The translations under genes were made by a program, and so were the position numbers. A model generated the notes under the pieces. It saw only the letters and a program-made list of their open reading frames with translations, was not told the origin of the DNA and made no database searches. This document shows, in pieces, positions 1,574 through 56,132 of a stretch of 64,000 nucleotides of DNA. Origin of the DNA: Tenuifilum thalassicum (GTDB lineage Bacteria > Bacteroidota > Bacteroidia > Bacteroidales > Tenuifilaceae); assembly GCF_013265555.1 (NCBI RefSeq), contig NZ_CP041345.1:1038581-1102580 (forward strand), given 5' to 3'. Each line of letters starts with the position of its first letter. The stretch's first letter is position 1.

Positions 1574-4500
1574 ATGAAAAAAATCTTATCCTTATTGCTA
1601 TTGTTGGCAGTTTTGCCTGTTGCATTAATTGCTCAAGATGGAACTACATGTGAAAATGCTCTCGATGCAGTTGTTGGAACGAATACAGCCGATTGTTCCA
1701 GCGGAGATCAATGGTTTAAGTATACTGCAACCCTTGATGGAGTTATGAAGGTTTCCACATGTGGTTTAACTAATGAAGACACATATGTTAAAGTATTCGA
1801 TGGTTGTGGAGGGCAAGAAATTGGGAGTAATGATGATTACTGCAATAGACAATCAGAGATAACTATTGATGTAATAAGCGGTGTAACATATTATATAGTT
1901 TGGGAGAACTGGTACACATCAGCTGTCTTTGATTGGACGATTGAGGAATATGAACCACAACCTGGTGAAACTTGCAATTCAGCATTAGATGCTTCCTCGG
2001 GCACAAATACAGCTGATTGTTCTAGTGGGAGTCAATGGTTTAAGTATACAGCAACTAGAGATGGAAAAATAGTTTTGAGTAGCTGCGGGCTTACAACAGA
2101 TAGTACTGATGTTTCGGTTTATCAAAGTTGTGGTGGTAGTTCGATGAATTTGAATGATTTATGTAGTGTGGGGCAAAGCGAAATTCAATTTAATGCGGTT
2201 ATGGGTACTACCTATTATATTAACTGGATAGACTACAATAATGGCACATTTAATTGGACTTTAAGCGAGGAGGACTGGGGTCCAGGGGAGACATGCACGA
2301 CGGCCATAGAAGCGGTAGCAGGGACAAATACGGCCGACTGCACAGGCGGTGACAGGTGGTTCAAGTACACGGCCACGCGCGATGGGAAGATAGCCATAAG
2401 CAACTGTGGGCTAACCGGCGATAATACAGGGCTTGAAATCTATACCGATTGTGGATCCTATCCGGTATACGATGGAAATTACTGTGGTAGCGGGCAGCGC
2501 CAGGTACAGCTACAAGGACAGGTTGGTGTAACCTACTACATTAGATGGACTGACGGTAGTTCTGGCACCTTTGATTGGACCCTGAGCGAGGAGGACTGGG
2601 GTCCAGGGGAGACATGCACGACGGCCATAGAAGCGGTAGCAGGGACGAATACGGCCGACTGCACAGGCGGTGACAGGTGGTTCAAGTACACGGCCACGCG
2701 CGATGGGAAGATAGCCATAAGCAACTGTGGGCTAACCGGCGATAATACAGGGCTTGAAATCTATACCGATTGTGGATCCTACCCGGTGTCCTATGGCAAC
2801 AGCTGTGGTAGCGGGCAGAGCCAGGTACAGGTACAAGGACAGGTTGGTGTAACCTACTACATTAGATGGACTGACGGTAGTTCTGGCACCTTTGATTGGA
2901 CCCTGAGCGAGGAGGACTGGGGTCCAGGGGAGACATGCACGACGGCCATAGAAGCGGTAGCAGGGACGAATACGGCCGACTGCACAGGCGGTGACAGGTG
3001 GTTCAAGTACACGGCCACGCGCGATGGGAAGATAGCCATAAGCAACTGTGGGCTAACCGGCGATAATACAGGGCTTGGTATCTACACCGATTGTGGATCC
3101 TACCCGGTGTCCTATGGCAACAGCTGTGGTAGCGGGCAGCGCCAGGTACAGCTACAAGGACAGGTTGGTGTAACCTACTACATTAGATGGACTGACGGTA
3201 GTTCTGGCACCTTTGATTGGACCCTGAGCGAGGAGGACTGGGGTCCAGGGGAGACATGCACGACGGCCATAGAAGCGGTAGCAGGGACGAATACGGCCGA
3301 CTGCACAGGCGGTGACAGGTGGTTCAAGTACACGGCCACGCGCGATGGGAAGATAGCCATAAGCAACTGTGGGCTAACCGGCGATAATACAGGGCTTGAA
3401 ATCTATACCGATTGCGGGTCAAATCCGGTATACTATGAAAATTACTGTGGTAGCGGACAGCGCCTAGTAAAGCTACAAGGACAGGTTGGCATAACCTACT
3501 ACATTAAATGGACTGACGGTAGTTCTGGCACCTTTGATTGGACCCTGAGCGAGGAGGACTGGGGTCCAGGGGAGACATGCACGACGGCCATAGAAGCGGT
3601 AGCAGGGACGAATACGGCCGACTGCACAGGCGGTGACAGGTGGTTCAAGTACACGGCCACGCGCGATGGGAAGATAGCCATAAGCAACTGTGGGCTAACC
3701 GGCGATAATACAGGGCTTGAAATCTATACCGATTGTGGATCCTATCCGGTATACTATGGAATTTACTGTGGTAGCGGACAGCGCCTAGTAAAGCTACAAG
3801 GACAGGTTGGCATAACCTACTACATTAAATGGTCTGACTACAGTTCTGGCACCTTTGATTGGACCCTGAGCGAGGAGGACTGGGGTCCAGGGGAGACATG
3901 CACGACGGCCATAGAAGCGGTAGCAGGGACGAATACGGCCGACTGCACAGGCGGTGACAGGTGGTTCAAGTACACGGCCACGCGCGATGGGAAGATAGCC
4001 ATAAGCAACTGTGGGCTAACCGGCGATGATACAGCGCTTGAAATCTATACCGATTGTGGATCCTACCCGGTGTCCTTTGGCAACAGCTGTGGTAGCGGGC
4101 AGCGCCAGGTACAGCTACAAGGACAGGTTGGTGTAACCTACTACATTAGATGGACTGTCGGTATTTCTGGCACCTTTGATTGGACCCTGAGCGAGGAGGA
4201 CTGGGGCCCAGGGGAGACATGCACGACGGCCATAGAAGCGGTAGCAGGGACGAATACGGCCGACTGCACAGGCGGTGACAGGTGGTTCAAGTACACGGCC
4301 ACGCGCGATGGGAAGATAACCATAAGCAACTGTGGGCTAACCGGCGATAATACAAGGCTTGAAATCTATACCGATTGTGGATCCTATCCGGTATACTATG
4401 GAAATTACTGTGGTAGCGGACAGCGCCTAGTAAAGCTACAAGGACAGGTTGGTGTAACCTACTACATTAGATGGACTGACGGTAGTTCTGGCACCTTTGA

Positions 4501-40222: not shown

Positions 40223-40240
40223 TTGTTAATTAAATAACAA
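40223..40240 (+). promoter_or_regulatory. Putative Rex operator upstream of the sigma-54 activator gene
   Basis: The 18-mer TTGTTAATTAAATAACAA differs by one base from the Rex consensus TTGTTAANNNNTTAACAA; the flanking A and T extend the outer arms to ATTGTTA / TAACAAT. It lies 50 bases before the ATG at 40291, inside the promoter region. Rex represses fermentation genes and leaves DNA when NADH is high. A Rex-like gene lies 6 kb downstream in the module this activator probably controls, although that protein's recognition helix is unusual. Confidence 0.55.
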
Positions 40241-40290
40241 TTAATTCTTTTTATCGTATCTTGCAGCATGATACCTAATGTGTTTGGCAA

Positions 40291-42186
40291 ATGAAAGGAA
40301 TTATTGCAAAATCGCATTATCGAAGTGCAAAATATGGAATTGAGCAGGATCTACTGTTTCCTAAAAAAATATTAAGCAATAATGAGTTAGAAGCGATATT
40401 GGCTGCTAATAGGCAATTTATTGATGTAGCAAAGCCTATAATTCAAAACCTTTACAGTATAGTAAAAGGATCTGGATTTGTTATAATATTAACAGATGGT
40501 GAGGGGTGCATTTTAGATTTAATGGGTGATAGCGAAACCGTTAAAGACGCCGCAGCTCTTAATATGATAGTCGGTGCCTATATGGCAGAAGAAAGTGTTG
40601 GTACAAATGCAATGGGGTTGGCTATTAGCGAAAATAAACCCGTACAGGTTACGGCTCAGGAGCATTTCATAAATGCCTATCACAGGTGGACTTGCTCATC
40701 GGCTCCTATCCATGACCAGGAAGGAAAGATAATAGGTGTTCTTAATTTAACCGGCAAATATAACCTGGTTCACCCTCATACACTTGGTCTTGTTGTGGCT
40801 GCTGTTAAGTCGATTGAAAATGATTTGCGCAATACAATACTTAATAGGGAACTCCAAGAAACTTCCACAAAGCTGGATGCAATAATTAATAGCTTGTCCT
40901 ATGCAATTATTACTGTTGATATCGATGGGGTAATTGAACGTGTAAATAATACGGTTTATAGTATTTTTGGTGTTGAACCCAAAGAATTGATAGGAAGCCA
41001 CATAAGCAAGTATCTTGATAAATGGAATAATACCTGGCGGATAATTAGCAGCCAGAAGCAGGTGGTCGATGAGGAGGTTACCATCTCGAACGTTACATCT
41101 CCGGGAAGTTTTGTCATGAACGCCATGCCCATTATTCTTGACGACTTTGATGTGCATGGAGCTGTTTTAACTTTCAGGGAAATGAAACGCGTTTACAAAA
41201 TAGTAAATAAGTATTCTGGAATGAATGCGCACTATACCTTTGACGACATAATAGGTACGAGCAAGGCTATCAGAGAGGTGATTGATTTTGCAAAGATTGT
41301 TGCAGCTAGCCCTTCTACAATCTTAATTACCGGAGAAAGTGGTACGGGAAAGGAAGTCTTTGCTCAGGCTATACATAACGAAAGCTCAAGAAGGGACTCT
41401 AGTTTTGTGGCGGTCAACTGTGGCGCTATCCCTGAATCGTTAATTGAAAGTGAGCTGTTTGGTTTTGAAGATGGTGCTTTTACCGGCGCCAAAAAAGGTG
41501 GACGTCCCGGTAAGTTTGAACTGGCTAATGGCGGAACCCTTTTTCTCGATGAAATTGGTGAAATGCCCCTTGATATGCAAGTTAAGCTCTTGAGAGCTCT
41601 TCAGGAAGGCGAAATTACCAGAGTAGGGAGTACTAAAACCATCCCCTTAGATGTTAGGGTTATCGCTGCTACCAATAGGGATCTAAAGCAGCTTATTAAC
41701 GAAAACAAATTCCGCCTCGATTTATATTATAGGTTGAATGTTATTCCTCTTAAGATTCCTCCTTTGAGAGAAAGGAGAGAGGATATCCCTCTTTTAATTA
41801 ATTATTTCTTAAACACTAAGGCGCTAAAACTCAATAAAGAGGTCCCAAGCATTGATAAACAAACTTACGAATTGCTCCTTCAATATGAATGGCCGGGAAA
41901 TATCAGAGAACTTGAAAATTTCATTGAAAAGACGGTTAACCTGAATGGAAAGATTGTTTTTGATGTTCCCGACGAAAACGAATTTAAAGCTAAATACTAT
42001 CAGCCAAACATTCAGCAGGATAGTAATTATAATTGTGTTTTGAGATCGCTTGCCGAGATTGAAAAACAAGCAATATCTGATACCATTGAGCAATGCAACT
42101 CTAATGTGTCTAAAGCTGCTAAAGTGCTTGGAATTAGTAGAAATACATTATACCTGAAGTGTAAAAAATATTCTATATCACTTTAG
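40291..42186 (+). CDS. Sigma-54-dependent transcriptional activator (GAF-PAS-AAA+-Fis)
   Basis: This is an enhancer-binding protein of 631 residues that would open sigma-54 RNA polymerase promoters using ATP. The N-terminal part (about 45-190) is an AcoR-like GAF sensor with ESVGTNAMGLAI and a YHRWTCSSAPIHD segment. A PAS domain follows (about 200-310; VDIDGVIERVNNTVYSIFG). The AAA+ domain has Walker A GESGTGKE (about 348-355), the sigma-54 contact loop GAFTGA (about 395) and Walker B TLFLDEIGEMP. The C-terminal Fis-type helix-turn-helix (about 590-631) contains NVSKAAKVLGISRNTLYLK. There is no receiver domain, so activity is probably set by a ligand or redox state rather than phosphorylation. 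Targets likely include the module starting at 42945, which has a -24/-12 promoter. Confidence 0.92.
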   Translation: MKGIIAKSHYRSAKYGIEQDLLFPKKILSNNELEAILAANRQFIDVAKPIIQNLYSIVKGSGFVIILTDGEGCILDLMGDSETVKDAAALNMIVGAYMAEESVGTNAMGLAISENKPVQVTAQEHFINAYHRWTCSSAPIHDQEGKIIGVLNLTGKYNLVHPHTLGLVVAAVKSIENDLRNTILNRELQETSTKLDAIINSLSYAIITVDIDGVIERVNNTVYSIFGVEPKELIGSHISKYLDKWNNTWRIISSQKQVVDEEVTISNVTSPGSFVMNAMPIILDDFDVHGAVLTFREMKRVYKIVNKYSGMNAHYTFDDIIGTSKAIREVIDFAKIVAASPSTILITGESGTGKEVFAQAIHNESSRRDSSFVAVNCGAIPESLIESELFGFEDGAFTGAKKGGRPGKFELANGGTLFLDEIGEMPLDMQVKLLRALQEGEITRVGSTKTIPLDVRVIAATNRDLKQLINENKFRLDLYYRLNVIPLKIPPLRERREDIPLLINYFLNTKALKLNKEVPSIDKQTYELLLQYEWPGNIRELENFIEKTVNLNGKIVFDVPDENEFKAKYYQPNIQQDSNYNCVLRSLAEIEKQAISDTIEQCNSNVSKAAKVLGISRNTLYLKCKKYSISL

Positions 42187-42230
42187 TTTACTTCAAACTT
42201 TCACATTATACTTATTTCTGAAGCGACTAG

Positions 42231-42267
42231 AAAGTTCCATTTCTAGCCGCTTTCTTTTTAATATTAT
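42231..42267 (+). terminator. Rho-independent terminator after the sigma-54 activator gene
   Basis: AAGCGACTAGAAA / TTTCTAGCCGCTT with one mismatch and a 6-base loop, followed by TTCTTTTT, 45 bases after the stop. Confidence 0.75.
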
Positions 42268-42508
42268 TAAATAGATTTAACCCTGACTAGACGTGCTCGG
42301 GCTCAGCTATGAAATCAATATTTTTTACAACGCAAAAATATTACCATTTACTTTACTGAATATTTGCCACACGGTATTTGGCCTATAACCTACAAATGTT
42401 TATTAAGTCTAGCTTACTTTTCCCATCGACCACAGTTGTACATTGCATGAAATACCTGTGTAATTGCTTACATAAAGTACGTTTTTTTCAACAAGTGTTT
42501 TCCTTAGC

Positions 42509-42792
42509 TGTCAAATTATAATCCGACACTGAATTAGATGTTGATTTTGTTGAGAATCATACTTTTATAAATCATCTGTACAAGGGCAGTTCGTGTTTGT
42601 TAGAAGTTTTACTAATCTTGCAACTCCACTATAACATATTTTAAGGTAAATATAACTCTCAGTAAACCATCTTGATTTTTCTACAGTGTCACTTTCCGGC
42701 ACATCCTGTTGTTATCTTTCAATCAATACGGCTTTTAAATGTCATAAAATAGTACAGTGTCATAAGGTAGTACACGTGTCCTGCTATTAGCT
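42509..42792 (+). promoter_or_regulatory. Candidate enhancer region with repeated GTGTC/CTGTC elements
   Basis: The 758-bp spacer 42187-42944 has no gene. It contains related elements: GCTGTC at 42507-42512 with inverted GACAC at 42525-42529, TACAGTGTCAC at 42682-42692 with GGCAC at 42698-42702, GTACAGTGTCAT from about 42752, GTACACGTGTC from about 42770, and AGCTGTCC from about 42789. They lie roughly 80-370 bases upstream of the sigma-54 promoter, where activator binding sites would be. Nothing else was seen in the spacer beyond a terminator at its start. Confidence 0.4.
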
Positions 42793-42871
42793 GTCCTAAA
42801 GTTGAACATATTGAATTTGTTGTTGTCTCGAGTAAGTTGTAAAGTGCAGATAAATAGCATTATAAGGCTTT

Positions 42872-42887
42872 TGGCACGGCTATTGGT
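42872..42887 (+). promoter_or_regulatory. Sigma-54 (-24/-12) promoter
   Basis: TGGCACG-GCTA-TTGGT fits the sigma-54 consensus TGGCACG-N4-TTGCW except for one base at -12 (GG instead of GC). The predicted start is about 12 bases further, some 45 bases before the alcohol dehydrogenase ATG. A sigma-54 activator gene is directly upstream. Confidence 0.75.
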
Positions 42888-42944
42888 AAAACTTTATCGA
42901 AGTGTTAAGAAGATAACAGAGTACTAACAAAAAAAATTACAACT

Positions 42945-44111
42945 ATGAAACGATTCACATTACCAAGAGACATCTATTTTGGAGATAATTCTTTAGAAGT
43001 TTTAAAAACCATTAAGGGAAAGAGGGCTGTAGTAGTCGTAGGTGGCGGCTCGATGAAACGTTTTGGCTTTTTGGACAAGGTGTTTGCTTACCTAAAAGAG
43101 GCAGGGCTTGAAGTTAAGCTATTTGAAGGCGTAGAGCCTGATCCTTCGGTAGAAACAGTGATGAAGGGTGCAGCCATGATGCGTGAGTTTAATCCGGATT
43201 GGATTGTTTCAATAGGAGGCGGTTCGCCTATTGATGCAGCTAAGGCAATGTGGATATTTTATGAGCATCCTGATGCAAAGTTCGAAGAGGTTGCTAAACC
43301 TTTTAATATACCGCCTTTAAGAAACAAGGCAAGGTTTATTGCTATCCCTTCAACAAGTGGCACTGCTACTGAAGTTACCGCTTTCTCTGTTATTACTGAT
43401 TACTCAAAGGGAATTAAGTATCCCTTAGCTGACTACGAGATAACACCAGATATTGCCATTTTGGATGCCTCAATTGCTGAGACCATGCCCAAACAGCTCA
43501 CTGCGCACACCGGAATGGATGCCATTACCCATGCAACTGAAGCTTACGTGGCTTCTGCCAGGAGCGACTTTTCCGATCCGTTGGCTCTAAAGGCGATTAA
43601 AATGATAAAGGATAACATTTTAGATTCATTTAACGGAAACAAAGCGGCTAGAGAGAATATGCATATTGCTCAGTGCCTGGCAGGTATGGCTTTTACAAAT
43701 GCTTTATTGGGGATTGTGCATAGCCTTGCACATAAAACTGGAGCAATATTTCATATCCCTCACGGTTGCGCAAATGCCATTTACCTTCCATATGTTGTTA
43801 GATTTAACCAAAAAGTTTGCGCCGAACGTTATGCCGAAATTGCAAGATATATCGGTTTAACAGGTAATTCAACTGAGGAACTTGTAGATGCTTTCGTGAA
43901 TTTCTTGATCGATTTGAACCACAAACTTGAAATCCCTTGTACTCTAAAAGAGTTTGGTGTAAGCGAAAGTGAGTTTAAGAGCAACATCGACAGAATTGCT
44001 ATGAACGCAGCTGAGGATGCGTGTACCGGAAGCAACCCCAGAGAAACAACTGTTGAGGATTTTAAAAAGCTGCTCAATGCAATATACTACGGCGAAGCTG
44101 TTAATTTTTAA
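42945..44111 (+). CDS. Iron-containing alcohol dehydrogenase
   Basis: This group III (Fe-dependent) alcohol dehydrogenase probably reduces acetaldehyde or a related aldehyde to the alcohol with NAD(P)H. The coenzyme motif VVVGGGS (about 25-31) and GGGSPIDAAKAM are present. So are the metal-binding residues: HTGMDAITHATEAYV supplies Asp and an early His, and GIVHSLAHKTGAIFHIPHGCAN supplies the later histidines. The length (388) is normal for the family. It resembles the ADH domain of AdhE and clostridial butanol/ethanol dehydrogenases. It is the first gene behind a sigma-54 promoter and is followed by nfnA, so alcohol formation seems coupled to the NAD(P)H/ferredoxin balance. No aldehyde dehydrogenase is adjacent. 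Confidence 0.92.
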   Translation: MKRFTLPRDIYFGDNSLEVLKTIKGKRAVVVVGGGSMKRFGFLDKVFAYLKEAGLEVKLFEGVEPDPSVETVMKGAAMMREFNPDWIVSIGGGSPIDAAKAMWIFYEHPDAKFEEVAKPFNIPPLRNKARFIAIPSTSGTATEVTAFSVITDYSKGIKYPLADYEITPDIAILDASIAETMPKQLTAHTGMDAITHATEAYVASARSDFSDPLALKAIKMIKDNILDSFNGNKAARENMHIAQCLAGMAFTNALLGIVHSLAHKTGAIFHIPHGCANAIYLPYVVRFNQKVCAERYAEIARYIGLTGNSTEELVDAFVNFLIDLNHKLEIPCTLKEFGVSESEFKSNIDRIAMNAAEDACTGSNPRETTVEDFKKLLNAIYYGEAVNF

Positions 44112-44121
44112 TCATTGCGAC

Positions 44122-44147
44122 ATGGGGGCGGAAATATTCGCCCCCAT
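44122..44147 (+). other. GC-rich hairpin between the alcohol dehydrogenase gene and nfnA
   Basis: A perfect 9-bp stem ATGGGGGCG-GAAATATT-CGCCCCCAT begins 11 bases after the adh stop. No T run follows, so it is more likely an mRNA-stabilising or processing hairpin than a full terminator. It could raise adh output relative to the downstream genes. Confidence 0.65.
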
Positions 44148-44162
44148 ATAACTGTGTTGGTT

Positions 44163-45038
44163 ATGTTTAAGATTTTAAGAAAAAGAGAATTAGCCCCGGA
44201 TATTTATCTGTTTGAAGTTGAAGCACCGCGTGTGGCTAAAACTGCTAATCCTGGTCAGTTTGTTATTGTTCGTGCATACGATAAGGGGGAGAGAATCCCA
44301 TTAACCATAGCCGATTATGACAAAAGAACAGGGTCGGTAACTATTGTAATTCAGGCGCTTGGGGCAAGCACCCGAGTTATTTGCTCTTTTGAGGAGGGTG
44401 ACTCTTTTGTTGATTTTGCCGGACCTCTTGGCCAACCTTCAGATTTTATTCATTTTGACCCCGACAAAATAAATGGGAAACGTTTTTTGTTTGTTGCTGG
44501 TGGAGTAGGTGCCGCTCCCATTTATCCTCAGCTAAAGTATCTAAAGGAACGTGGTGCAGTCCTTGATGTAATTATTGGGGCCAGAAGCAAAGAATTGCTT
44601 ATCCTTCTTGACGAGATACGTGAAAAGGTAGATAATCTTTATGTTGCAACTAACGACGGGTCGTTTGGATATAAAGGATTTGTTACCTGTGTGCTTGAGG
44701 AGTTAATATCGAAGGGTAACCAATATGATCAGGTTATCGCTATAGGGCCAATGGTGATGATGAAATCGGTTGCCGAGTCTACTAAAAAGTATTCGATTCC
44801 AACAATTGTAAGCTTAAATACCTTAATGATCGACGGTACTGGAATGTGTGGGGCATGCAGGGTTACTGTAAACGGAAAAATCAGGTTCACTTGCGTTGAC
44901 GGACCGGAGTTTAATGCTCATGAGGTGGATTTTGATGAGGCTATGCTTAGGTTGAATATGTATAGATCTGAGGAGCAAAAGCGTTTGGTTGACATAGAGC
45001 GCAAACACCATAAATGCAAAATAGGGAGGACAATGTAA
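44163..45038 (+). CDS. nfnA: NADH-dependent ferredoxin:NADP+ oxidoreductase, subunit A
   Basis: NfnA is the FAD/[2Fe-2S] subunit of the NfnAB (SudBA) complex, which couples NADP+ reduction by NADH and by reduced ferredoxin. The ~291-residue protein has an N-terminal FAD-binding barrel (RELAPDIYLFEVEAP, NPGQFVIVRA), an NAD-binding segment FVAGGVGAAPIYPQ, and a C-terminal [2Fe-2S] site with GTGMCGACRVTVNGKIRFTC. The ATG at 44163 is chosen because the longer frame from a TTG at 44115 reads through the hairpin at 44122-44147. It overlaps nfnB by one base (TAATG). The similar PyrK protein is excluded by the nfnB neighbour. Confidence 0.9.
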   Translation: MFKILRKRELAPDIYLFEVEAPRVAKTANPGQFVIVRAYDKGERIPLTIADYDKRTGSVTIVIQALGASTRVICSFEEGDSFVDFAGPLGQPSDFIHFDPDKINGKRFLFVAGGVGAAPIYPQLKYLKERGAVLDVIIGARSKELLILLDEIREKVDNLYVATNDGSFGYKGFVTCVLEELISKGNQYDQVIAIGPMVMMKSVAESTKKYSIPTIVSLNTLMIDGTGMCGACRVTVNGKIRFTCVDGPEFNAHEVDFDEAMLRLNMYRSEEQKRLVDIERKHHKCKIGRTM

Positions 45039-46456
45039 TGGGAACTTTAAAAAGCAGAGTGGCTATAGCGGAGCAATCACCCAAAGAGAGAAGAAGTAAC
45101 TTTAACGAAGTATGCTTAGGTTATAATATTGACGAGGCTAGACTCGAAGCTACTAGATGTTTAGAATGTAAAAAACCCAAGTGTGTTGAGGCTTGTCCCG
45201 TTTCCATTAATATCCCCTTGTTTATAAAACATATCAAATCGGGTGATATAGCAGAAGCCGCTAAAGTAATTGATTTAGATTCAAGCCTGCCCGCTGTATG
45301 CGGAAGAGTATGCCCCCAGGAGATTCAATGTGAAGGTTCATGTGTAATGGGGAAGAAGGGTGAACCTGTTTCCATTGGAAAACTAGAACGTTTTGTTGCC
45401 GATTGGACGATAAAAAATCACCTGGAGCTTACTACTAAATCATCAAAAAGGAATAGTAGGGTTGCCGTTATTGGTTCTGGTCCTGCTGGATTGTCGTGTG
45501 CTTCCGATTTGGCAAAAATGGGTTATGAGGTAACGGTGTTCGAAGCATTACATATGCCTGGGGGAGTTCTTGTATATGGAATCCCTGAATTTAGGCTCCC
45601 AAAATCAATTGTAGAAGAACAGATAAACCAGCTAAAAAGGATTGGTGTTAGGTTTGAACTTGATGTAATTGTTGGTAAAACCATTACTGTAGATAGCCTT
45701 ATGGAGGAAGAGGGGTATGGTGCTGTTTTTATTTCTACTGGTGCTGGTTTACCTCGATTTATGGGTATTCCTGGTGAAAACCTAAATGGAGTAGTTTCGG
45801 CAAATGAGTTCCTGACCCGAATAAACCTTATGAAAGCATATCAGGGCGATTACGACACACCGGTTTATATCGGAAAGAATGTTGTTGTAGTGGGTGGGGG
45901 AAATGTCGCAATGGATGCGGCACGAAGTGCCATTCGATTGGGCTCAAATGTGAAAATTGTATATCGACGCTCAGAAAAAGAGCTCCCTGCTAGGGCTGAG
46001 GAGGTTCATCATGCCATCGAGGAAGGGGTCGAATTCTGTTTTCTGACTAATCCCGTTGAAATTTTATCCGATGAAAAGGGGTGGGTTAATGAATTGAGGT
46101 GTGTGAAGATGAGACTGGGAGAACCCGACTCCAATGGTAGGAGAGTACCTGAACCAATCCCTAATTCAGCATTCTCCATTTCTTGCGATATGGTTATTAT
46201 GGCATTAGGGACTTCTCCTAATCCTTTAATTATTAACACTACGAAAGGACTTAAAAGTGAACGGTGGGGCGGAATACATGTGGTAAATGAATTTGGAAAA
46301 ACTACTCGACCAGGTGTTTTTGCCGGAGGCGATGCAGTTACAGGCGCTGCTACTGTTATTCTTGCCATGCAGGCGGGTCGTAAGGCTGCAGCTGCAATTG
46401 ATGAATTTCTTCGCGAACGGGATTCTAAGCATTTTAACTTCTCAAGTGCTAACTAA
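45038..46456 (+). CDS. nfnB: NADH-dependent ferredoxin:NADP+ oxidoreductase, subunit B (glutamate synthase small-subunit-like)
   Basis: NfnB holds the bifurcating FAD and two [4Fe-4S] clusters. The ~472-residue protein has N-terminal cysteine motifs CLECKKPKCVEACP and CGRVCPQEIQCEGSC, the FAD motif VAVIGSGPAGLSCA and the NAD(P) motif VVVVGGGNVAMDAARSA. A C-terminal FAD motif GVFAGGDAVTGAATVILAM follows. The ATG at 45038 is preferred over 45014: it overlaps the nfnA stop and has a strong Shine-Dalgarno AGGGAGGA 7 bases ahead. Without a GltB partner, and next to nfnA, this is Nfn rather than GltD. In this organism it probably links NADPH, NADH and ferredoxin pools to the neighbouring dehydrogenase and hydrogenases. 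Confidence 0.9.
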   Translation: MGTLKSRVAIAEQSPKERRSNFNEVCLGYNIDEARLEATRCLECKKPKCVEACPVSINIPLFIKHIKSGDIAEAAKVIDLDSSLPAVCGRVCPQEIQCEGSCVMGKKGEPVSIGKLERFVADWTIKNHLELTTKSSKRNSRVAVIGSGPAGLSCASDLAKMGYEVTVFEALHMPGGVLVYGIPEFRLPKSIVEEQINQLKRIGVRFELDVIVGKTITVDSLMEEEGYGAVFISTGAGLPRFMGIPGENLNGVVSANEFLTRINLMKAYQGDYDTPVYIGKNVVVVGGGNVAMDAARSAIRLGSNVKIVYRRSEKELPARAEEVHHAIEEGVEFCFLTNPVEILSDEKGWVNELRCVKMRLGEPDSNGRRVPEPIPNSAFSISCDMVIMALGTSPNPLIINTTKGLKSERWGGIHVVNEFGKTTRPGVFAGGDAVTGAATVILAMQAGRKAAAAIDEFLRERDSKHFNFSSAN

Positions 46457-46471
46457 TTCTCTATACCCACT

Positions 46472-47128
46472 ATGGTACCCAATACGCCCCAATCATTAGA
46501 TTACGAATTGTTTAAACGATTAAAGAAGTACATAAAAGGGTTAAAGATACAAGCCATTAAGGGAAGGAATGAAACCTCATTGTACTCTTTATCGGAAATT
46601 ATCAATATTGATCATGACTTGATAATGAGCGACTTAACGCTTATAGGGGTGTCCGATGGTATTAAAGAAGTATTTTGTGTTGGCTCTTTGATTCAGCAGC
46701 TATCTAATCTTATTGGTTACAATAGAATAGAGGAGGCCTGTTTGATTGGTGCTGGGCCAATTGCTGAGAGTATAGTTAGTTCTGTTGAGTTCGAGAAGTG
46801 TAATTTGAGAATTGTTGCAGCTTTTGACAGTAATCCTGCTGAACATAGTGAGATTGCCGGACTAAGAGTTTTGGGTATGGACCGTATAGGAGAAATAGTT
46901 CAGCGTATGCATGTTGTTCTAGCCATTATGGCTGCTCCTAGAATCGATTCGGCTGTTGCTGCCAAAATAATTCTGAACTCTTCAATAAAAATGATTTGGA
47001 ACTTCACCGAATTGGCTTTGAGCGAGGTTGGTGAGGTGGTTGTGGTTAATAGCAATTTGCAAGGTGATATTATTGCTGATTATAAGTTGCTTCTTCAGCG
47101 ATACTATAATCGTTTTGGCCTTAAGTAA
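46472..47128 (+). CDS. Rex-like redox-sensing protein with divergent DNA-binding helix
   Basis: Rex proteins sense the NADH/NAD+ ratio and repress fermentation genes. This 218-residue protein has a winged-helix N-terminus (about 1-75) followed by a Rossmann domain with LIGAGPIAESIV (normal GxGxxG/A), IVAAFDSNP and the family motif IWNFTELAL. The recognition helix reads DHDLIMSDLTLIG where typical Rex has basic residues (compare VRKDLSYFG of the family). This may change or abolish binding to the usual operator. It lies 15 bases after nfnB in the same operon. Whether it acts as a DNA-binding repressor, a partner-binding sensor, or both is open. Confidence 0.75.
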   Translation: MVPNTPQSLDYELFKRLKKYIKGLKIQAIKGRNETSLYSLSEIINIDHDLIMSDLTLIGVSDGIKEVFCVGSLIQQLSNLIGYNRIEEACLIGAGPIAESIVSSVEFEKCNLRIVAAFDSNPAEHSEIAGLRVLGMDRIGEIVQRMHVVLAIMAAPRIDSAVAAKIILNSSIKMIWNFTELALSEVGEVVVVNSNLQGDIIADYKLLLQRYYNRFGLK

Positions 47129-47162
47129 TTATTCAACTGTTTCAAACTAAAGGTGTATAGCC

Positions 47163-47420
47163 ATGGGAACTGAAAAAATACCTATTGTGATCTGCCTGGG
47201 TAGTTCATGTTTTTCAAGAGGTAATAGGGAAACTCTCGAAGTGATTAAGAGCTACCTTAAAACTAAAAAAATTGAGGACAAGGTTGTTTTTAAAGGGCAG
47301 CTCTGTACTGAGTCATGTAATAAGGGTCCGGTAATTTGGATAAACAACCAGAAATTCGAGGCCGTTACTCAAAATAATGTTGTTTCTATACTTAACCAGG
47401 CACTTAAGTCCATATTATGA
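47163..47420 (+). CDS. Thioredoxin-like [2Fe-2S] ferredoxin, first copy
   Basis: This 85-residue protein belongs to the thioredoxin-like [2Fe-2S] ferredoxins, the fold of NuoE and HydC C-terminal parts. The cysteine pattern CLGSSC ... LCTESC provides the four cluster ligands. A weak Shine-Dalgarno (AAAGGTG) lies ahead. It overlaps the sensory hydrogenase gene by 4 bases, suggesting translational coupling and that it delivers or takes electrons from that protein. A second copy precedes the catalytic hydrogenase. Its position first in the hydrogenase half of the operon mirrors hfs-type clusters. Confidence 0.85.
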   Translation: MGTEKIPIVICLGSSCFSRGNRETLEVIKSYLKTKKIEDKVVFKGQLCTESCNKGPVIWINNQKFEAVTQNNVVSILNQALKSIL

Positions 47421-49153
47421 ACTTAGATCAACCCATTTATACTGAGAAAAATAACTGTCAGGATTGTTACAAGTGTGTCCGAAACTGTCCTGTAAAAGCT
47501 ATAAAAATAGCCGATAACTGTGCTTCGGTTATTGATGAGCTGTGCATTAGTTGCGCAAAATGCGTTCAGGTTTGTCCTGTGGGGGCAAAACAAGTGAGAG
47601 CCGACATTGATATTGTTAAGTTATTGATTCGAAGCGAAAAAAAGGTGATCCTCTCAATTGCTCCATCCTGGATAAGTTCATTTCGGAATGTCGACTCCCG
47701 GTCGCTAATATCTGCTTTAAAAAAATTAGGCTTCTTCGCAATTTCCGAAACTGCATTGGGGGCCGAACTGGTTAACCGGTTTACCCGGGATTACATCATG
47801 AATAGTCACCAAAAGCTGTTTTTATCATCTGCTTGCCCAGTTGTTGTGGAGTGGGTAAACAAATATTATAGTGAGCTCTCAGACAAGTTGCTGCCTGTTT
47901 TATCTCCCCTTTTATCACATGCTAAGTACTTAAAAGAATATTATGGACCGGATGCACATGTGGTATTTGCTGGGCCATGTATTGCAAAAAAGAGAGAAGC
48001 CGACCGAAATCCAGACCTGGTAGATGCATGTATCACATTTCGTGAATTACAGGATTGGATGGATGAGGAATCCATCTCCTTTCAACCTGCCGAAAGTGAA
48101 AGTCTCTTTTTTGAACCTGTCGAAGCGGTTTCCGGAGCAAGTTATCCAATTGATGGGGGGATGATTTCTGGAATCGTCCAGAATCGGGATTTTGATGGCA
48201 TTCAGTTCTTTGCCTTTTCCGGTATAGATGCTGTAAAGCAGGTACTAACTGATATGGAGCTGTTGAACTCCGACTCAAAAATTTTTATTGAATTAATGTC
48301 TTGCACTGGTGGGTGTATAAATGGTCCAGGTGCAATACTGAATGGTTCAATTGCTCAAAAGCATAGTGTTGTTGTAAACCAAACGAACAGTAAACATTTA
48401 AGAATCGGGGGGTGGAAAGAACTCGCTGTGGATAATGTTGATATATCTGCTCGCTATAAACCCGTTGATATTCCTTATGCTTTTCAATATTCAGAAAATG
48501 AAATAGTTGAGTCGCTTAGGTCTGTAGGGAAACAATCAAGTAAGGATGAATTGAATTGTGGGGGATGTGGGTATGAGAGTTGTAGAGATTTTGCAGTAGC
48601 CATGCTCGATGGGAAAGCGGAACGGAATATGTGCATCTCTTATATGCGTAGGGTAGCACAGGATAAAGCTACTGCTTTGCTCCAGCGAATGCCCAGCGGT
48701 GTTATTATAGTTGATGATAACCTAAGAGTTATAGAATGCAATCGGAATGCTGCTAAAATGCTCGGAGATGAGGTAGCTAATATTTTTGATGAAAATCCGG
48801 GACTTGCCAGAGCAAACGCGGCAAAGCTCCTTCCTTTCCATAAGTTGTTCTCTTTGGTGCTTTCTAACGGCCACGATATACTTGATAAAGACGTAACCGT
48901 AAATGGTAAAAAAATAAAGGTTTCAATTTTTACAATACAAGCACACAAAATTGTTTGCGCAATTATGCGTGACCTTAGTAATCCTGATGTTCGTAGCGAC
49001 GAGATAATTGCCCGAACACGCTATGTTATTAAGGAGAATCTTGAAACGGTTCAACAGATAGCCTACCTCTTAGGAGAGAATGCCTCCAGAACTGAGACTA
49101 TGCTTAATTCAATAATGGAGCTTTACGTTCAAGATCATGACAATTACCACTGA
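47417..49153 (+). CDS. Sensory-type [FeFe] hydrogenase with PAS domain (HfsB/HydS-like)
   Basis: A 578-residue protein with two N-terminal [4Fe-4S] clusters (about 14-60; CQDCYKCVRNCP and CISCAKCVQVCP) and an H-cluster domain (about 75-330). The H-cluster cysteines are visible: L1 SSACP (Cys140), L2 GPCIAKKRE (Cys188), L3 MSCTGGCINGPG (Cys296 and Cys300). The proton-relay cysteine of catalytic enzymes is replaced by Ala139. A Fe-S-type cysteine cluster follows (CGGCGYESC, about 381-410), then a PAS domain (about 428-540; GVIIVDDNLRVIECNRNA). PAS plus Cys-to-Ala is the mark of the group C putative sensory hydrogenases (Thermotoga HydS, Thermoanaerobacterium HfsB). It overlaps the ferredoxin and phosphatase genes, so the three probably form one signalling unit. 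Confidence 0.9.
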   Translation: MNLDQPIYTEKNNCQDCYKCVRNCPVKAIKIADNCASVIDELCISCAKCVQVCPVGAKQVRADIDIVKLLIRSEKKVILSIAPSWISSFRNVDSRSLISALKKLGFFAISETALGAELVNRFTRDYIMNSHQKLFLSSACPVVVEWVNKYYSELSDKLLPVLSPLLSHAKYLKEYYGPDAHVVFAGPCIAKKREADRNPDLVDACITFRELQDWMDEESISFQPAESESLFFEPVEAVSGASYPIDGGMISGIVQNRDFDGIQFFAFSGIDAVKQVLTDMELLNSDSKIFIELMSCTGGCINGPGAILNGSIAQKHSVVVNQTNSKHLRIGGWKELAVDNVDISARYKPVDIPYAFQYSENEIVESLRSVGKQSSKDELNCGGCGYESCRDFAVAMLDGKAERNMCISYMRRVAQDKATALLQRMPSGVIIVDDNLRVIECNRNAAKMLGDEVANIFDENPGLARANAAKLLPFHKLFSLVLSNGHDILDKDVTVNGKKIKVSIFTIQAHKIVCAIMRDLSNPDVRSDEIIARTRYVIKENLETVQQIAYLLGENASRTETMLNSIMELYVQDHDNYH

Positions 49154-50330
49154 TTCATATCATGTTGATGTTGGATGTGTCCAGCTATCAAAGTTCGGTG
49201 CCCAGGTTTGCGGCGATGTTTTTCTTTCGCGTAAGATAAAGGAGGAAGAGAGGACTATCGTTGCTGTCTCCGATGGATTAGGAAGTGGCGTAAAAGCCAA
49301 TGTCTTGGCAACTTTAACCGCATCAATGGCTGTGAATTTCACATTAGCCAAACAGCCTGTTGAACGCACCGCACGAATTATTATGCAAACCCTTCCTGTT
49401 GATCAGAAGCGTCAGATTAGCTATGCTACATTTACTATTGCTGATGTTGAGGGTAGTGGAGAAACCAGAATAATTGAGTTCGATAATCCTGGCTGGATTT
49501 TAGTGCGGAACACGAAGATTGTGGAAATCGACAAGCAGGAACTTTTTATTGATTTGAACGATGGTCGAAAGCGAAAAATGTTGCTTTCCCAGTTTAAACT
49601 CCAAAGGGATGATAGAATAGTTTTAGTTTCCGACGGGGTTACACAATCGGGTATTGGTACAGCACGAATGCCTTTTGGGTACGGAGAGGATGCGCTAAAA
49701 CGCTATGTGTGCAAATTGGTAAAAGAGAATAGCGGAATCTCAGCTTATGAACTGGCTCGAGATATTATAAGCAAATCAAATGCAAATGACATTTACAAGC
49801 CGCAAGATGATATTACTTGTGCTGTTATCCACTTCCGAAACCCTCGAAAACTGTTAATCTGCTCTGGCCCTCCGTTTAATGAATCGAGAGATAAACAGTT
49901 AGCTGAGCAAATAATGTCGTTTGATGGACGGAAAATTATTTGCGGAGGAACCACCTCGTTAATAGTATCTAGGGAACTTGGAATTCCCATTCGTGTCGGT
50001 TTAAGCATCGACTCTTCCGGTTTACCACCAATCTCTCACATGGAAGGTGTCGATTTGGTTACGGAAGGGATTCTTACAATTGGGAAAGTGGCAGAAATTT
50101 TAGAAACCCTTCAAGATACTGAAGTTTATGATACTGGCCCGGCTGCTGAGATTGTAAAGCAGATGTTCCAATCCGATATCATTTATCTTCTGGTTGGGAC
50201 CAAAATTAACGTTGCCCATCAGGACCCATCTCTACCTGTAGAGTTGGAAATAAGACGTAACGTAATGAGAAAGATTGCTCGTTTGTTAGAAGATAAATTC
50301 TTAAAGAAAGTTGAAATTCAATTCATATAA
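49137..50330 (+). CDS. SpoIIE/PP2C-type protein phosphatase
   Basis: This 397-residue soluble protein has an N-terminal SpoIIE/PP2C phosphatase domain (about 1-230) with the metal-binding aspartate motifs VSDGLGSG, VLVSDGVTQ and QDDITCAVI. The C-terminal region (about 230-397; RKLLICSGPPFNES, IICGGTTSLIVS) is an extra domain found with these hydrogenase-linked phosphatases; its role is unknown. It overlaps the sensory hydrogenase gene by 17 bases. PP2C phosphatases act on anti-sigma antagonists or other phosphoproteins; no kinase, STAS protein or anti-sigma factor lies in this window, so the substrate must be elsewhere or be one of the operon proteins. It resembles the phosphatase of the hfs cluster. 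Confidence 0.87.
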   Translation: MTITTDSYHVDVGCVQLSKFGAQVCGDVFLSRKIKEEERTIVAVSDGLGSGVKANVLATLTASMAVNFTLAKQPVERTARIIMQTLPVDQKRQISYATFTIADVEGSGETRIIEFDNPGWILVRNTKIVEIDKQELFIDLNDGRKRKMLLSQFKLQRDDRIVLVSDGVTQSGIGTARMPFGYGEDALKRYVCKLVKENSGISAYELARDIISKSNANDIYKPQDDITCAVIHFRNPRKLLICSGPPFNESRDKQLAEQIMSFDGRKIICGGTTSLIVSRELGIPIRVGLSIDSSGLPPISHMEGVDLVTEGILTIGKVAEILETLQDTEVYDTGPAAEIVKQMFQSDIIYLLVGTKINVAHQDPSLPVELEIRRNVMRKIARLLEDKFLKKVEIQFI

Positions 50331-50337
50331 TCTGTTT

Positions 50338-50595
50338 ATGGACATGAAAGTTGAAGTTATCATTTGCTCGGGAACTCTATGTTACTTAATGGGTGGTGCA
50401 GAATTGCAATTGCTTAGTGAGCATTTACCTCCAGCGTTGAAAGATAAAGTTATTGTAAAAGGCTCTCCTTGTGTTGGGTTTTGTGACAAACCCGAAAGCG
50501 GGAAACCACCTTTCGCCCTTATTAACGGCCGAAAAATCCAACAAGCTTCTGTTGATAAGCTGATTAGTGAAATTAAACAAGAGTTAGGTATATAG
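50338..50595 (+). CDS. Thioredoxin-like [2Fe-2S] ferredoxin, second copy
   Basis: The ferredoxin fold is the same as in the copy at 47163, with cluster cysteines CSGTLC ... PCVGFC. The protein is about 85 residues when started at the ATG at 50338, 7 bases after the phosphatase stop; the longer frame from 50311 would run inside that gene. It precedes the catalytic hydrogenase by 17 bases and could be its electron partner. Pairing one such ferredoxin with each hydrogenase is notable. No NuoF-like subunit is present, so this is not a HydABC set. Confidence 0.83.
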   Translation: MDMKVEVIICSGTLCYLMGGAELQLLSEHLPPALKDKVIVKGSPCVGFCDKPESGKPPFALINGRKIQQASVDKLISEIKQELGI

Positions 50596-50612
50596 GTAAG
50601 GAGGTTACAACT

Positions 50613-52055
50613 ATGGCTGTTGATAATAATGCAATGCTAATTCGAAGAGAGCTTATTACACATGTTGCTCGTTTGTTGATCGAGGATCAACTCGCCGAAA
50701 AGATTGATAGAGTTCCCCTGATTATGCGACCACGCAATAACTCGTCGGTTCGTTGCTGTATCCATAAGGATAGGGCTGTGCTTAAGTATAAATTGATGGG
50801 GATGCTAGGTTTTAACATTCAGGATGAGGTGGATGAGCTCACCCCGCTATCGGACTATGCAAGACAGGCTATGAACCGGGATGAAACTACAGATATTGTT
50901 TTAACTGTTGTTGATGAGGCCTGCTCCACTTGTCAAAAATCCAGCTATGCGGTTACAAACTTTTGTAGGGGGTGTGTGGCCAGACCATGTATGGTTAACT
51001 GTCCTAAAAATGCAATCACATTTTACAACGGAAAGGCCAGTATCGATTATGACCTTTGTGTAAATTGTGGCAAATGCATGAAGGTTTGCCCTTTTAATGC
51101 CGTTGTTTACATGCCTGTGCCATGCGAGGAGGCTTGCCCTGTTGGTGCCATTAGTAAGAATGAAAATGGTGTTGAGCAAATTGATTTCTCTAAATGTATC
51201 TATTGCGGTAAATGTTTATCGAATTGCCCATTTGGTGCCATCGTGGAGAAATCAAGCTTAGTTGATATTTTTATTAACAAACGCAGAGGTAAAGAGCTGA
51301 TAGCTTTAGTCGCTCCTGCTATTGCAGGTCAGTTTGGTGTCGACTTCCCAAAAATAGTTAAAGGTTTCGAACTAATTGGTTTTGATTATGTGTATGAGGT
51401 TGCTCATGGTGCTGAAACTACTACAAATTTTGAGGCACAGGAACTTAAAGAGCGGCTCGAACAAGGCGATAAGTTTATGACTACAAGTTGCTGCCCGGCA
51501 TACACATCCCTTGTTGATAAGCATGTTAACGAGCTTAAGCCCTTCGTCTCTCATACTAAAACTCCAATGTACTACTCGGCTGAGGATGTTCGCAAAAAAC
51601 ATCCAGATGCTTGTATAATTTTTGTTAGCCCTTGTCCCGCAAAACGTTGGGAAGTATTTCACAATCCGTTTGTCGATTTTGCGTTGAGCTTTGAAGAGTA
51701 TGGAGCATGGTTGGTGGCTGCTAAAATCGATCTTAATGCTGTTGAACCTGCAATTATCTCTAACGTGCCTACTGCAGAAGCCAGAGGCTTTGCAGCTTCT
51801 GGTGGGGTTACAAATGCTTTAAAATCTGTTGCAAATGGATTGGATATCAATGAGATGATAGTTAATGGTATTGACAAAAGTGTTGTTCGACAGCTTAAAA
51901 GTTTCGTCAAATCGCCAACCGCTAATTTTGTTGAGGTTATGACGTGCGAAGGTGGATGTATTGGTGGATGCAACGTGGTAAGTAATCCTAGGGTTGCTTT
52001 GAAACAGCTCAATAAGTCGATTGGCGCTTCTTGCATGGCAAGTAATAAACGTTAA
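50613..52055 (+). CDS. Catalytic-type [FeFe] hydrogenase (HfsD-like)
   Basis: This 480-residue hydrogenase probably makes H2 from ferredoxin or a thioredoxin-like ferredoxin. Its N-terminal half holds three or four [4Fe-4S] motifs: CRGCVARPCMVNCP, CVNCGKCMKVCP, a short CEEACPVGAIS and CIYCGKCLSNCP. The C-terminal H-cluster domain shows L1 TSCCPAY (proton-relay Cys293, ligand Cys294), L2 SPCPAKRWE (Cys341) and L3 MTCEGGCIGGC (Cys445 and Cys449). All ligands are intact, and the relay cysteine, lost in the sensory protein upstream, is kept. The L2 methionine before PC is serine here. A strong Shine-Dalgarno TAAGGAGG lies 8 bases ahead. Maturases HydE, HydF and HydG are not in the window. It ends the operon before a strong terminator. 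Confidence 0.92.
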   Translation: MAVDNNAMLIRRELITHVARLLIEDQLAEKIDRVPLIMRPRNNSSVRCCIHKDRAVLKYKLMGMLGFNIQDEVDELTPLSDYARQAMNRDETTDIVLTVVDEACSTCQKSSYAVTNFCRGCVARPCMVNCPKNAITFYNGKASIDYDLCVNCGKCMKVCPFNAVVYMPVPCEEACPVGAISKNENGVEQIDFSKCIYCGKCLSNCPFGAIVEKSSLVDIFINKRRGKELIALVAPAIAGQFGVDFPKIVKGFELIGFDYVYEVAHGAETTTNFEAQELKERLEQGDKFMTTSCCPAYTSLVDKHVNELKPFVSHTKTPMYYSAEDVRKKHPDACIIFVSPCPAKRWEVFHNPFVDFALSFEEYGAWLVAAKIDLNAVEPAIISNVPTAEARGFAASGGVTNALKSVANGLDINEMIVNGIDKSVVRQLKSFVKSPTANFVEVMTCEGGCIGGCNVVSNPRVALKQLNKSIGASCMASNKR

Positions 52056-55847: not shown

Positions 55848-55855
55848 TACATTTG
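55848..55855 (+). promoter_or_regulatory. Putative -7 box of the nrdDG operon
   Basis: TACATTTG matches TAnnTTTG and lies 8 bases before the start of the riboswitch, which fits a leader transcript beginning near 55860. No clear -33 TTG. Confidence 0.5.
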
Positions 55856-55863
55856 TATTGTCA

Positions 55864-56016
55864 AGTAGGTCCCTTTTGGGTTAATAGGGAACCCGGTGAA
55901 AATCCGGGGCTATCCCCGTAGCTGTAAGCTCTTTGTTATCTTTTGCATGGATACCACTGTCCTGGAGTACCCGGATGGGAAGGTGGCAAAAGTCTGAGCA
56001 AGCCAGAAGACCTGCC
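55864..56016 (+). promoter_or_regulatory. Cobalamin (B12) riboswitch
   Basis: The full aptamer can be read: the P1 strands GTAGGTC (55865-55871) and GACCTGC (56009-56015); AATAGGGAACCCGGTGAAAA; the CCGGGGCTATCCCCG hairpin with GCTGTAA; CCACTGTC with GGGAAGGTGG; and the B12 box AAGCCAGAAGACCTGCC. Beyond it, GTAGCC (from 56034) and GGCTAC (to 56104) can pair as the expression platform. It should turn off the downstream nrdDG genes when adenosylcobalamin or a related form is abundant. Confidence 0.93.
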
Positions 56017-56132
56017 TGCTTGGTTGTTTTCTTGTAGCCTTCGGGTGAAAGGCGAGGAGAGAAGGGGAAACCCTAAATTCTTCGGTTTTTCTATTCGGGG
56101 CTACCATTTGTCAAACCTTAAAATTATTAAAA

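Follow-up and report, generated by a model that had tools for sequence, protein, structure and literature searches.

The window analysed here is a stretch of 64,000 nt from the complete genome of the Bacteroidales bacterium Tenuifilum thalassicum, and all coordinates refer to it. It contains a ten-gene block (40291-52055, + strand) in which an activator gene is followed by nine closely spaced genes. The first gene (40291-42186) encodes a sigma-54 activator with GAF, PAS, AAA and Fis-type helix-turn-helix domains, an AdhR-like architecture recognized from the ORF list, Pfam and NCBIfam, in agreement with the GAF-PAS activator proposed in the first-pass annotation. In the listed open reading frames, the gaps between the nine following genes (42945-52055) never exceed 34 nt, and some neighbours overlap. 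These genes encode, in order, an iron-dependent alcohol dehydrogenase (Fe-ADH, 42945-44111), an NfnA-type FAD/NAD subunit (44163-45038; PRK06222, 398 bits against a cut-off of 220), an NfnB/GltA-type NADPH subunit (45014-46456; TIGR01316, 594 bits against 472), a Rex-like protein with a Rex fold and an eroded DNA-reading helix (46472-47128; NCBIfam Rex, 115.6, below the cut-off of 130), a thioredoxin-like [2Fe-2S] ferredoxin (Fd1, 47163-47420), HydS, which joins a sensory-type [FeFe] hydrogenase domain to FeS and PAS domains (47417-49153), a SpoIIE/PP2C-type phosphatase (49137-50330), a second small ferredoxin-like protein (Fd2, 50311-50595) and a catalytic group B [FeFe] hydrogenase (HydB, 50613-52055; TIGR04105, 493 bits against 450). 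Fe-ADH, Fd1, HydS and the phosphatase were assigned by Pfam/NCBIfam; Fd2 matched no family above cut-off, and its name reflects our reading of its cysteine pattern. The ORF list and the family matches bear out the nine closely packed genes described earlier. The listed NfnA frame starts at TTG 44115 and its family match starts at residue 17, an ATG; if this ATG (44163) is the start, the gap to Fe-ADH is 51 nt. Rfam gave no match in the module at the gathering threshold. Scans for sigma-70 promoters (33 against 35.2 in shuffles) and terminators (12 against 10.4) were set aside because their counts were no better than those of shuffled sequence.

The hydrogenase half follows the order known for hfs/HydS modules, namely ferredoxin-like protein, PAS sensory hydrogenase, SpoIIE phosphatase and catalytic hydrogenase, so its earlier likening to hfs clusters holds for both gene families and order. 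HydS keeps the H-cluster cysteines, with Ala at the position of C299, Gly at that of M353 and Met kept at that of M497; two of the three sensory changes are therefore present, and it was counted as sensory. Across a 57-row HydS set the first motif is variable, with SSCCP also frequent. The catalytic hydrogenase annotated previously is indeed a catalytic [FeFe] enzyme, now read as group B. Two further [FeFe] hydrogenase loci are present in the genome. Both Nfn subunits exceed their family cut-offs and their genes are adjacent; this putative NfnAB might carry out flavin-based electron bifurcation. The ethanol output proposed earlier is putative: nothing in the genome scored above cut-off for AdhE, whose aldehyde half reached no more than 40 bits. 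Aldehyde might be supplied by an aldehyde ferredoxin oxidoreductase, the gene for which has a Rex box. A reading of the alcohol dehydrogenase as the C-terminal half of a broken AdhE was rejected, because most orthologues in relatives are separate 388-residue genes too.

Ahead of the nine genes lies a predicted sigma-54 promoter (TGGCACG-N4-TTGGT, 42872-42887, + strand) with one mismatch to consensus, and rpoN was found in the genome. Such a match was not accepted as evidence when taken alone: the pattern with up to two mismatches occurs five times in the window against 7.4 expected, and with up to one mismatch 20 times in the whole genome against 10 for a control pattern. What makes the site convincing, and upholds the promoter placed here by the first-pass annotation, is its conservation in relatives, where TTGGCAC..TTG is kept; at -12, the window genome and three relatives have TTGG where the consensus has TTGC. 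Upstream on the same strand are four copies of TGT-N11-ACA. Copies 2 (42740-42756), 3 (42758-42774, 18 nt from copy 2) and 4 (42792-42808) are activator sites predicted by motif scan and alignment with relatives, and copy 1 (42687-42703) is a candidate that resembles the others least and is not matched by their consensus. Four copies in 758 nt compare with 0.46 expected, a count reached by three of 2000 shuffles, and all four start with TGTC, which none of 2000 shuffles reached. The N11 spacer was picked after the sites had been seen, and a test with the spacer free at 10-12 was run alongside, in which a cluster of three in 100 nt was reached by 3 of 2000 shuffles. The consensus from three copies has three exact matches in the genome, all at this locus, and 16 with up to two mismatches against eight for the control.

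Two Rex operators are predicted. Operator 1 (TTGTTAATTAAATAACAA, 40223-40240) has one mismatch and lies 50 nt before the activator gene, where a Rex-like operator had been claimed; it is kept in all four aligned rows, the window included, although one row has a substitution in its right half. Operator 2 (TGTTAAGAAGATAACA, 42903-42918) lies 15 nt after the sigma-54 element. A third exact core box (40479-40494), within the activator coding sequence, may be due to chance. Genome-wide, the operator pattern with up to one mismatch occurs at 10 places against two for the control, and the core box at 13 against six; since the control would account for six of the 13, a single box counts for little as evidence. 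Seven of the 13 fall within the three [FeFe] hydrogenase loci, which together with their margins cover 1.2% of the genome, and the two other hydrogenase loci carry the same core boxes. In the wider set of relatives, an exact core precedes only three of 16 activator genes, all three from one genus, and six of 56 operon regions. As a separate observation, the activator sites (42687-42808) and the second Rex box are additions to the first-pass annotation.

Two genomes from one other genus of the family (G399 and G407) have all ten genes in the same order and at the same site, and a third genome (G397) has a shorter version with activator, Rex-like protein, Fd1, HydS, phosphatase, Fd2 and HydB. 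The activator proteins of these three are 65-76% identical to that of the window, and the alcohol dehydrogenase is 84% identical in G399. Alignment of the window genome with relatives shows a promoter footprint of activator sites, TTGGCAC-N5-TTG and Rex box, whose order and spacing are kept across genera while the flanks diverge. Among 56 intergenic regions of operon type, 13 have an activator site together with a sigma-54 site ahead of them, compared with two of 882 others, and one of the latter two (L145) is the alcohol dehydrogenase of the same operon type.

Linkage was surveyed at 56 HydS loci. All 47 gene-by-locus counts for activator, alcohol dehydrogenase, NfnA, NfnB and Rex-like genes fell within six ORFs of HydS, and none of these genes was found only farther away in loci reaching about 10 kb on each side; the random association that would have spoken against the module is not borne out. 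Activator genes also occur beside HydS loci at which no alcohol dehydrogenase or Nfn gene was found (e.g. L064, L065, L078 and L142). The 56 loci leave out L155 and L156, from the window's own genome, and L130, whose HydS was missed by the greedy ORF caller; the same caller gave L120 a false N-terminal extension. At least two locus pairs (L054/L135 and L056/L137), each with contigs of equal length, look like the same contigs, and NfnA matches below 40% identity (L129, L131) were not counted. The survey had suggested that the ten-gene set is unique to the window genome, a view rejected because G399 and G407 carry it in full; the combination called unusual is unusual, but not unique. Full-length HydS was not found in two genomes of the same genus and three of the same family (best E-values 1e-59 to 5e-70), and among the matches listed for G138 and G376 only residues 5-416 are spanned. 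Six same-genus genomes gave no activator match stronger than about 1e-79.

A canonical Rex is encoded elsewhere in the genome, and the Rex-like gene named in the first-pass annotation proved to encode a protein that retains the Rex fold but has lost the residues for DNA reading. Winged helix and Rossmann domain were both recognized, and the top 39 PDB matches are Rex-family proteins; the TM-score of about 0.47 and rmsd of 11-14 over the whole chain are, in our reading, due to a different domain orientation. The recognition-helix Arg-Lys pair and Gly-Tyr wing looked for were not both present. In T. maritima Rex, the Arg-Lys pair reads the operator (PMC8836258). It is not kept as a pair in any of 15 members of the Rex-like clade, whereas 25 of 26 canonical rows keep it. 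PF06971, the Rex N-terminal family, matches canonical Rex and L154, but not the window protein at E 0.001 or L125 and L129 at 0.01, and L121 only below cut-off. The Rossmann glycine motif is altered in the window protein (GAGPIAES), L119, L120 and L122 and nearly intact in L121, L125, L129 and L131. The inner branching of the Rex trees is unsure because of long branches for the window protein, L132, L232 and L279.

If the operon Rex-like protein were nevertheless the repressor on both operators, control would be simple autoregulation and canonical Rex uninvolved. Its place in the operon and its fold would suit this role, as would four operon-linked relatives outside the clade (L093, L097, L153 and L154) that keep the pair, the single residue left in some clade members (Arg in the nearest orthologues, G399 and G407, and in L132; Lys in L119) and three genomes with an operon copy in which a second Rex was not found (G257, G148 and G301). 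The clade-wide loss of the pair, the PF06971 results and the Rex core boxes at the two other hydrogenase loci speak against it, and we regard this arrangement as improbable. The operon protein is probably not the operator-binding repressor, and canonical Rex is the likelier binder.

By our own scoring, 10 of 11 clade loci show a neighbouring activator gene, activator sites or a sigma-54 site (in L120 no more than one site; L132 is the locus without any), against none of four operon Rex genes with an intact helix; counted by lineage, this is five of six against none of four (p 0.024). On its short contig, L279 has an activator, an alcohol dehydrogenase and a Rex-like gene but no hydrogenase. 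Supported by these observations and by the clade-wide loss of the Arg-Lys pair, and by analogy with NifL, which serves NifA, the Rex paralogue of this Bacteroidales lineage may have given up DNA reading to become an NAD(H)-sensing partner of the sigma-54 activator, a suggestion offered tentatively and with considerable doubt. If it were true, three inputs would meet at one promoter: NADH through canonical Rex and DNA, NADH through the Rex paralogue and the activator, and H2 through HydS and the phosphatase.

Gene content and order, the adjacent activator gene, the predicted activator sites and sigma-54 promoter, and two predicted Rex operators at fixed places can be read from the DNA itself. 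On this basis, the block is likely to be a Bacteroidales version of the hfs/HydS hydrogenase module, organized as one sigma-54 transcription unit, and the best model for its control is a double gate in which Rex would block both the activator gene and the operon. At high NAD+, canonical Rex would bind both operators, keeping the activator level low and blocking the sigma-54 start itself. As NADH rises, Rex would leave, the activator would be made and bind its tandem sites, and a signal received by its GAF/PAS domains would open the promoter. Through the group B hydrogenase, alcohol dehydrogenase and NfnAB, electrons of reduced ferredoxin and NAD(P)H would then leave the cell as H2 and alcohol. 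HydS would sense H2, its PAS domain and the SpoIIE phosphatase tuning a phosphoprotein, possibly the activator; we infer this feedback by analogy with R. albus and hfs. The operon Rex-like protein, probably no longer a reader of Rex boxes, may act as an NAD(H) sensor at the protein level. The circuit put forward earlier, from Rex through the activator to the sigma-54 operon, has conserved sites at each step, but Rex probably also acts directly on the operon at operator 2. Points against the model are the TTGG at -12, the few exact Rex cores in the wider set, the low value of single boxes, and the lack of full-length HydS matches in the same-genus and same-family genomes searched and of activator matches stronger than about 1e-79 in the six same-genus genomes.

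The enzymes of the module are reversible in principle. The module might be mainly oxidative, consuming H2 and alcohol to reduce ferredoxin and NAD(P)+, or might cycle H2 as proposed for HfsD and HydA in Thermoanaerobacterium (PMC12288451), and the two further hydrogenase loci would be compatible with this. Rex-repressed genes of fermenters are, however, normally electron sinks released at high NADH (PMC5886521), and a published account credits group B enzymes with driving H2 production in the gut (PMC12578642), so that a mainly oxidative role seems unlikely. It is very improbable that the genes are mere neighbours driven separately by several sigma-70 type promoters, with the sigma-54, activator and Rex motifs as background. 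In favour of that view, the sigma-54 match by itself hardly differs from chance in the window and is no more than twice as frequent as the control genome-wide, and sigma-70-like sites are present, though no more than in shuffles. The small gaps and overlaps, the motif order and spacing held across genera and the activators recurring beside HydS loci at which no alcohol dehydrogenase or Nfn gene was found all argue against it.

H2 in the human gut has been reported to come mainly from group B hydrogenases of Bacteroides and others (PMC12578642), and control of such genes in Bacteroidales seems little described in the literature searched. Through its conserved sites, this compact locus yields a prediction of how one promoter could combine redox state with H2, and it supplies named bases and genes together with a family of Rex paralogues whose job seems to have changed.

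Close precedents exist in Firmicutes, in AdhR, hfs, Ruminococcus albus, Rex and hydrogenase-domain sigma-54 activators. Among the hfs genes, hfsA encodes a ferredoxin-like protein, hfsC a phosphatase and hfsD the catalytic enzyme. In Thermoanaerobacterium saccharolyticum, HfsB is a PAS sensory hydrogenase homologous to HydS, a predicted Rex site (TTGTTAATAAATTAACTA, -78) lies upstream of hfsABCD, and deletion of hfsB raises ethanol (PMC5707799, PMC5886521). Like the block in the window, hfsABCD gathers genes for a sensory hydrogenase, another iron hydrogenase and a sporulation-type protein into a single operon; unlike it, hfsABCD as described there has no alcohol dehydrogenase, NfnAB, Rex-like protein or sigma-54 activator. 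In Ruminococcus albus 7, an eight-gene H2-responsive cluster, down 111-fold in co-culture with an H2 consumer, likewise combines a ferredoxin hydrogenase, alcohol dehydrogenase, sensory group C hydrogenase and phosphatase, with co-transcription proposed; its catalytic enzyme is of group A1 and its alcohol dehydrogenase bifunctional, and the available text of the account mentions neither a sigma-54 activator nor Rex (PMC6776011).

In Clostridium beijerinckii, AdhR and SigL control adhA, and cooperation of AdhR with Rex has been suggested (PMC7017808, PMC6615313). AdhR shares the GAF-PAS-AAA-HTH architecture, a sigma-54 promoter, an alcohol dehydrogenase target and three upstream sites of the TGT-N10-12-ACA class with the window system. 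The window activator qualifies as AdhR-type by this architecture and by its sites upstream of a -24/-12 promoter; in NCBIfam it comes closest to PrdR and DhaR, neither of which reaches the cut-off. AdhR targets are alcohol dehydrogenase genes whereas the window target is a hydrogenase operon, and the AdhR account, as available, mentions a Rex box neither at the activator gene nor across the promoter (PMC7017808, PMC6615313). Some Clostridiales sigma-54 activators carry fused Fer4, Fe_hyd_lg_C and FeS domains and, like the window, link a hydrogenase sensor type to sigma-54 control, but HydS and the activator of the window are separate genes, joined at most via the phosphatase (PMC6615313). The study of gut Bacteroidetes concerns the same catalytic group in Bacteroidales fermenters; its available text contains neither "operon" nor "phosphatase" and treats sensory hydrogenases in general terms only (PMC12578642). 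A module combining sigma-54, Rex and [FeFe] hydrogenase in Bacteroidales was not found in the open-access literature searched, as far as its text was available. Taken link by link, the predicted wiring resembles systems described in other bacteria, and it is conserved in some relatives.

The genome of Tenuifilum thalassicum is a single contig of 3.20 Mb, with the window at positions 1038581-1102580. In the window, an activator gene (40291-42186) is followed by 758 nt and then by nine genes on one strand, which overlap or, by the listed ORFs, lie no more than 34 nt apart. Profile searches assigned these genes to Fe-type alcohol dehydrogenase (ADH), NfnA, NfnB, a Rex-like protein, a thioredoxin-like ferredoxin, a sensory-type [FeFe] hydrogenase with a PAS domain (HydS), a SpoIIE phosphatase, a second small ferredoxin-like protein and a group B [FeFe] hydrogenase (HydB), the last scoring above the curated cut-off of its family. 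The genes named in the first-pass annotation were all found, as were its sigma-54 site and Rex-like operator. The window also holds a cobalamin riboswitch (55850-56033; 113 bits) upstream of an ORF at 56133-58259.

HydS keeps the four H-cluster cysteines and has Ala at the C299 position, Gly at M353 and Met at M497. Changes at these three positions have been described for sensory hydrogenases (PMC10055695), and HydS has two of the three. The phosphatase keeps its motifs DGLGSG, SDG and DD. For Clostridiales, sigma-54 activators have been drawn in which a hydrogenase domain is fused to the protein (PMC6615313); linking H2 sensing with sigma-54 is therefore not new in itself.

The association of these gene families recurs in relatives. 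Of 393 genomes of the order, 30 (counting the window's own) had near-full-length HydS matches at an E-value of 5e-139 or better, and a further eight had near-full-length matches with 33-36% identity. Linkage of activator, ADH, NfnA, NfnB and Rex-like genes within six ORFs of HydS was scored in 56 loci: at least one of the five was present in 27, at least two in 15 and at least three in four. None of the 56 loci had partners counted solely beyond six ORFs, and none had all five together. The full ten-gene order is found in two genomes of one other genus of the same family (G399 and G407), with 48-84% identity per gene and at the identical site, between genes that we take to be rpoC and DUF3467-like and a homologue of the gene after HydB. 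A third family member, G397, carries a version without ADH and NfnAB. These three were the only ones of 23 family relatives (own genome excluded) with an activator orthologue at 65% identity or more. Distribution is patchy, since a HydS search of two same-genus and three same-family genomes gave no match better than 5e-70. Other arrangements were also observed. The neighbourhood at locus L126 (genome G089) contains two HydS-phosphatase pairs: one follows activator-ADH-NfnAB, and the other has its own ferredoxins and hydrogenase. In L125 a sodium/proton antiporter gene (3234-5450) lies between activator and NfnA, at the place of ADH in the window.

Four candidate activator sites, TGT-N11-ACA, lie between the activator gene and ADH (42687, 42740, 42758 and 42792) against 0.46 expected; four were reached in 3 of 2000 shuffles, and four all starting TGTC in none of 2000. 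Sites of this class, in which TGT and ACA repeats are spaced by 10-12 nt, have been reported for AdhR and others in Clostridiales (PMC6615313), and AdhR uses three of them (PMC7017808). A genome search whose consensus was built on three of these four copies, and which is hence partly circular, still found no other exact copy; the next-best matches had two mismatches (16 matches in all versus 8 for a control). In an alignment with relatives, the sigma-54 site at 42872 reads TTGGCAC-N5-TTG, and four of the five rows have TTGG. Among retrieved loci, TGGCAY-N5-TTG is located upstream of 12 of 369 operon-type genes versus 11 of 1491 others, and activator and sigma-54 sites occur together in 13 of 56 operon-type intergenic regions versus 2 of 882 others, one of which precedes an ADH of the same operon type. 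The activator-ADH gap (42187-42944) measures 758 nt versus about 277 nt in G407 and a similar length in G399, and its extra upstream part holds no listed ORF of 80 residues or more.

Of the Rex core TGTTA-N6-TAACA, which agrees with the Thermoanaerobacter motif quoted in PMC5886521, the genome has 13 copies, versus 6 of a control pattern. Seven of the 13 fall in three [FeFe] hydrogenase loci which, with margins of 400 nt added, cover 1.2% of the genome (binomial 6e-11; 2e-4 with boxes pooled by locus). Three belong to the module: one before the activator gene, one within its coding sequence and one (42903-42918) 15 nt past the sigma-54 element. The first is present in all four aligned rows, once with a base change, amid diverged flanks; for the last, the window, G407 and G399 have exact copies and G397 an altered one. 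Another relative, G006, has an exact core overlapping its sigma-54 site. In the wider set, an exact core was found ahead of the activator gene in 3 of 16 cases, all from one genus, and in 6 of 56 operon regions, so such Rex control is not universal among relatives.

The second hydrogenase locus (genome 1963078-1975096) combines the canonical Rex gene with response regulator and kinase genes and with genes for trimeric HydABC and for a hydrogenase fused to a histidine kinase. Divergent to these lies a second ferredoxin-HydS-phosphatase set, with a Rex core box between. The third (2307878-2320139) encodes a NuoF-like subunit and a 458-residue FeS/hydrogenase-domain protein and has three core boxes, two in tandem. 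Elsewhere, an exact box at 824808 (1501-1516 of locus L191) is followed after 51 nt by an aldehyde ferredoxin oxidoreductase gene. A further box lies 180 nt before nqrA, yet inside the 5' end of a divergent ORF.

Canonical Rex itself is encoded at 1963168-1963689, near the trimeric hydrogenase and the hydrogenase-histidine kinase. The operon protein has a Rex-like predicted fold (pLDDT 88, pTM 0.65), and its best 39 PDB matches are Rex-family. In the operon protein, Met and Ser take the place of the Arg-Lys pair with which Thermotoga maritima Rex reads its operator (PMC8836258). In a tree of 45 Rex rows (44 distinct), whose long branches leave the exact branching unsure, 15 operon-linked proteins cluster together (98/94). 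The Arg-Arg/Lys-Asp motif is kept in none of these 15, although Arg persists at loci L132, L275 and L276 and Lys at L119, versus 25 of 26 canonical rows and all four operon-linked proteins outside the group. When 12 genomes carrying an operon copy were searched with canonical Rex, nine yielded an additional Rex that was the closer match; G257, G148 and G301 yielded the operon copy alone.

Rex-family proteins bind DNA with NAD+ and are released by NADH (PMC8836258), a similar cluster in Ruminococcus albus is expressed H2-dependently (PMC6776011), and hfs, nfn and rex mutations are reported to alter ethanol yield in Thermoanaerobacterium saccharolyticum. By analogy, we infer that the block would act as an electron sink that opens when NADH is high and is adjusted by H2. 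Ethanol is only a possible product: the genome gave no AdhE match above the cut-off, and two aldehyde ferredoxin oxidoreductase genes are candidates for the aldehyde source. Every single link of this circuit has precedent in Firmicutes. As far as our searches reach, what is new is the union of these links in one Bacteroidales locus, together with predicted Rex sites at the activator gene as well as the promoter, and an eroded Rex paralogue.
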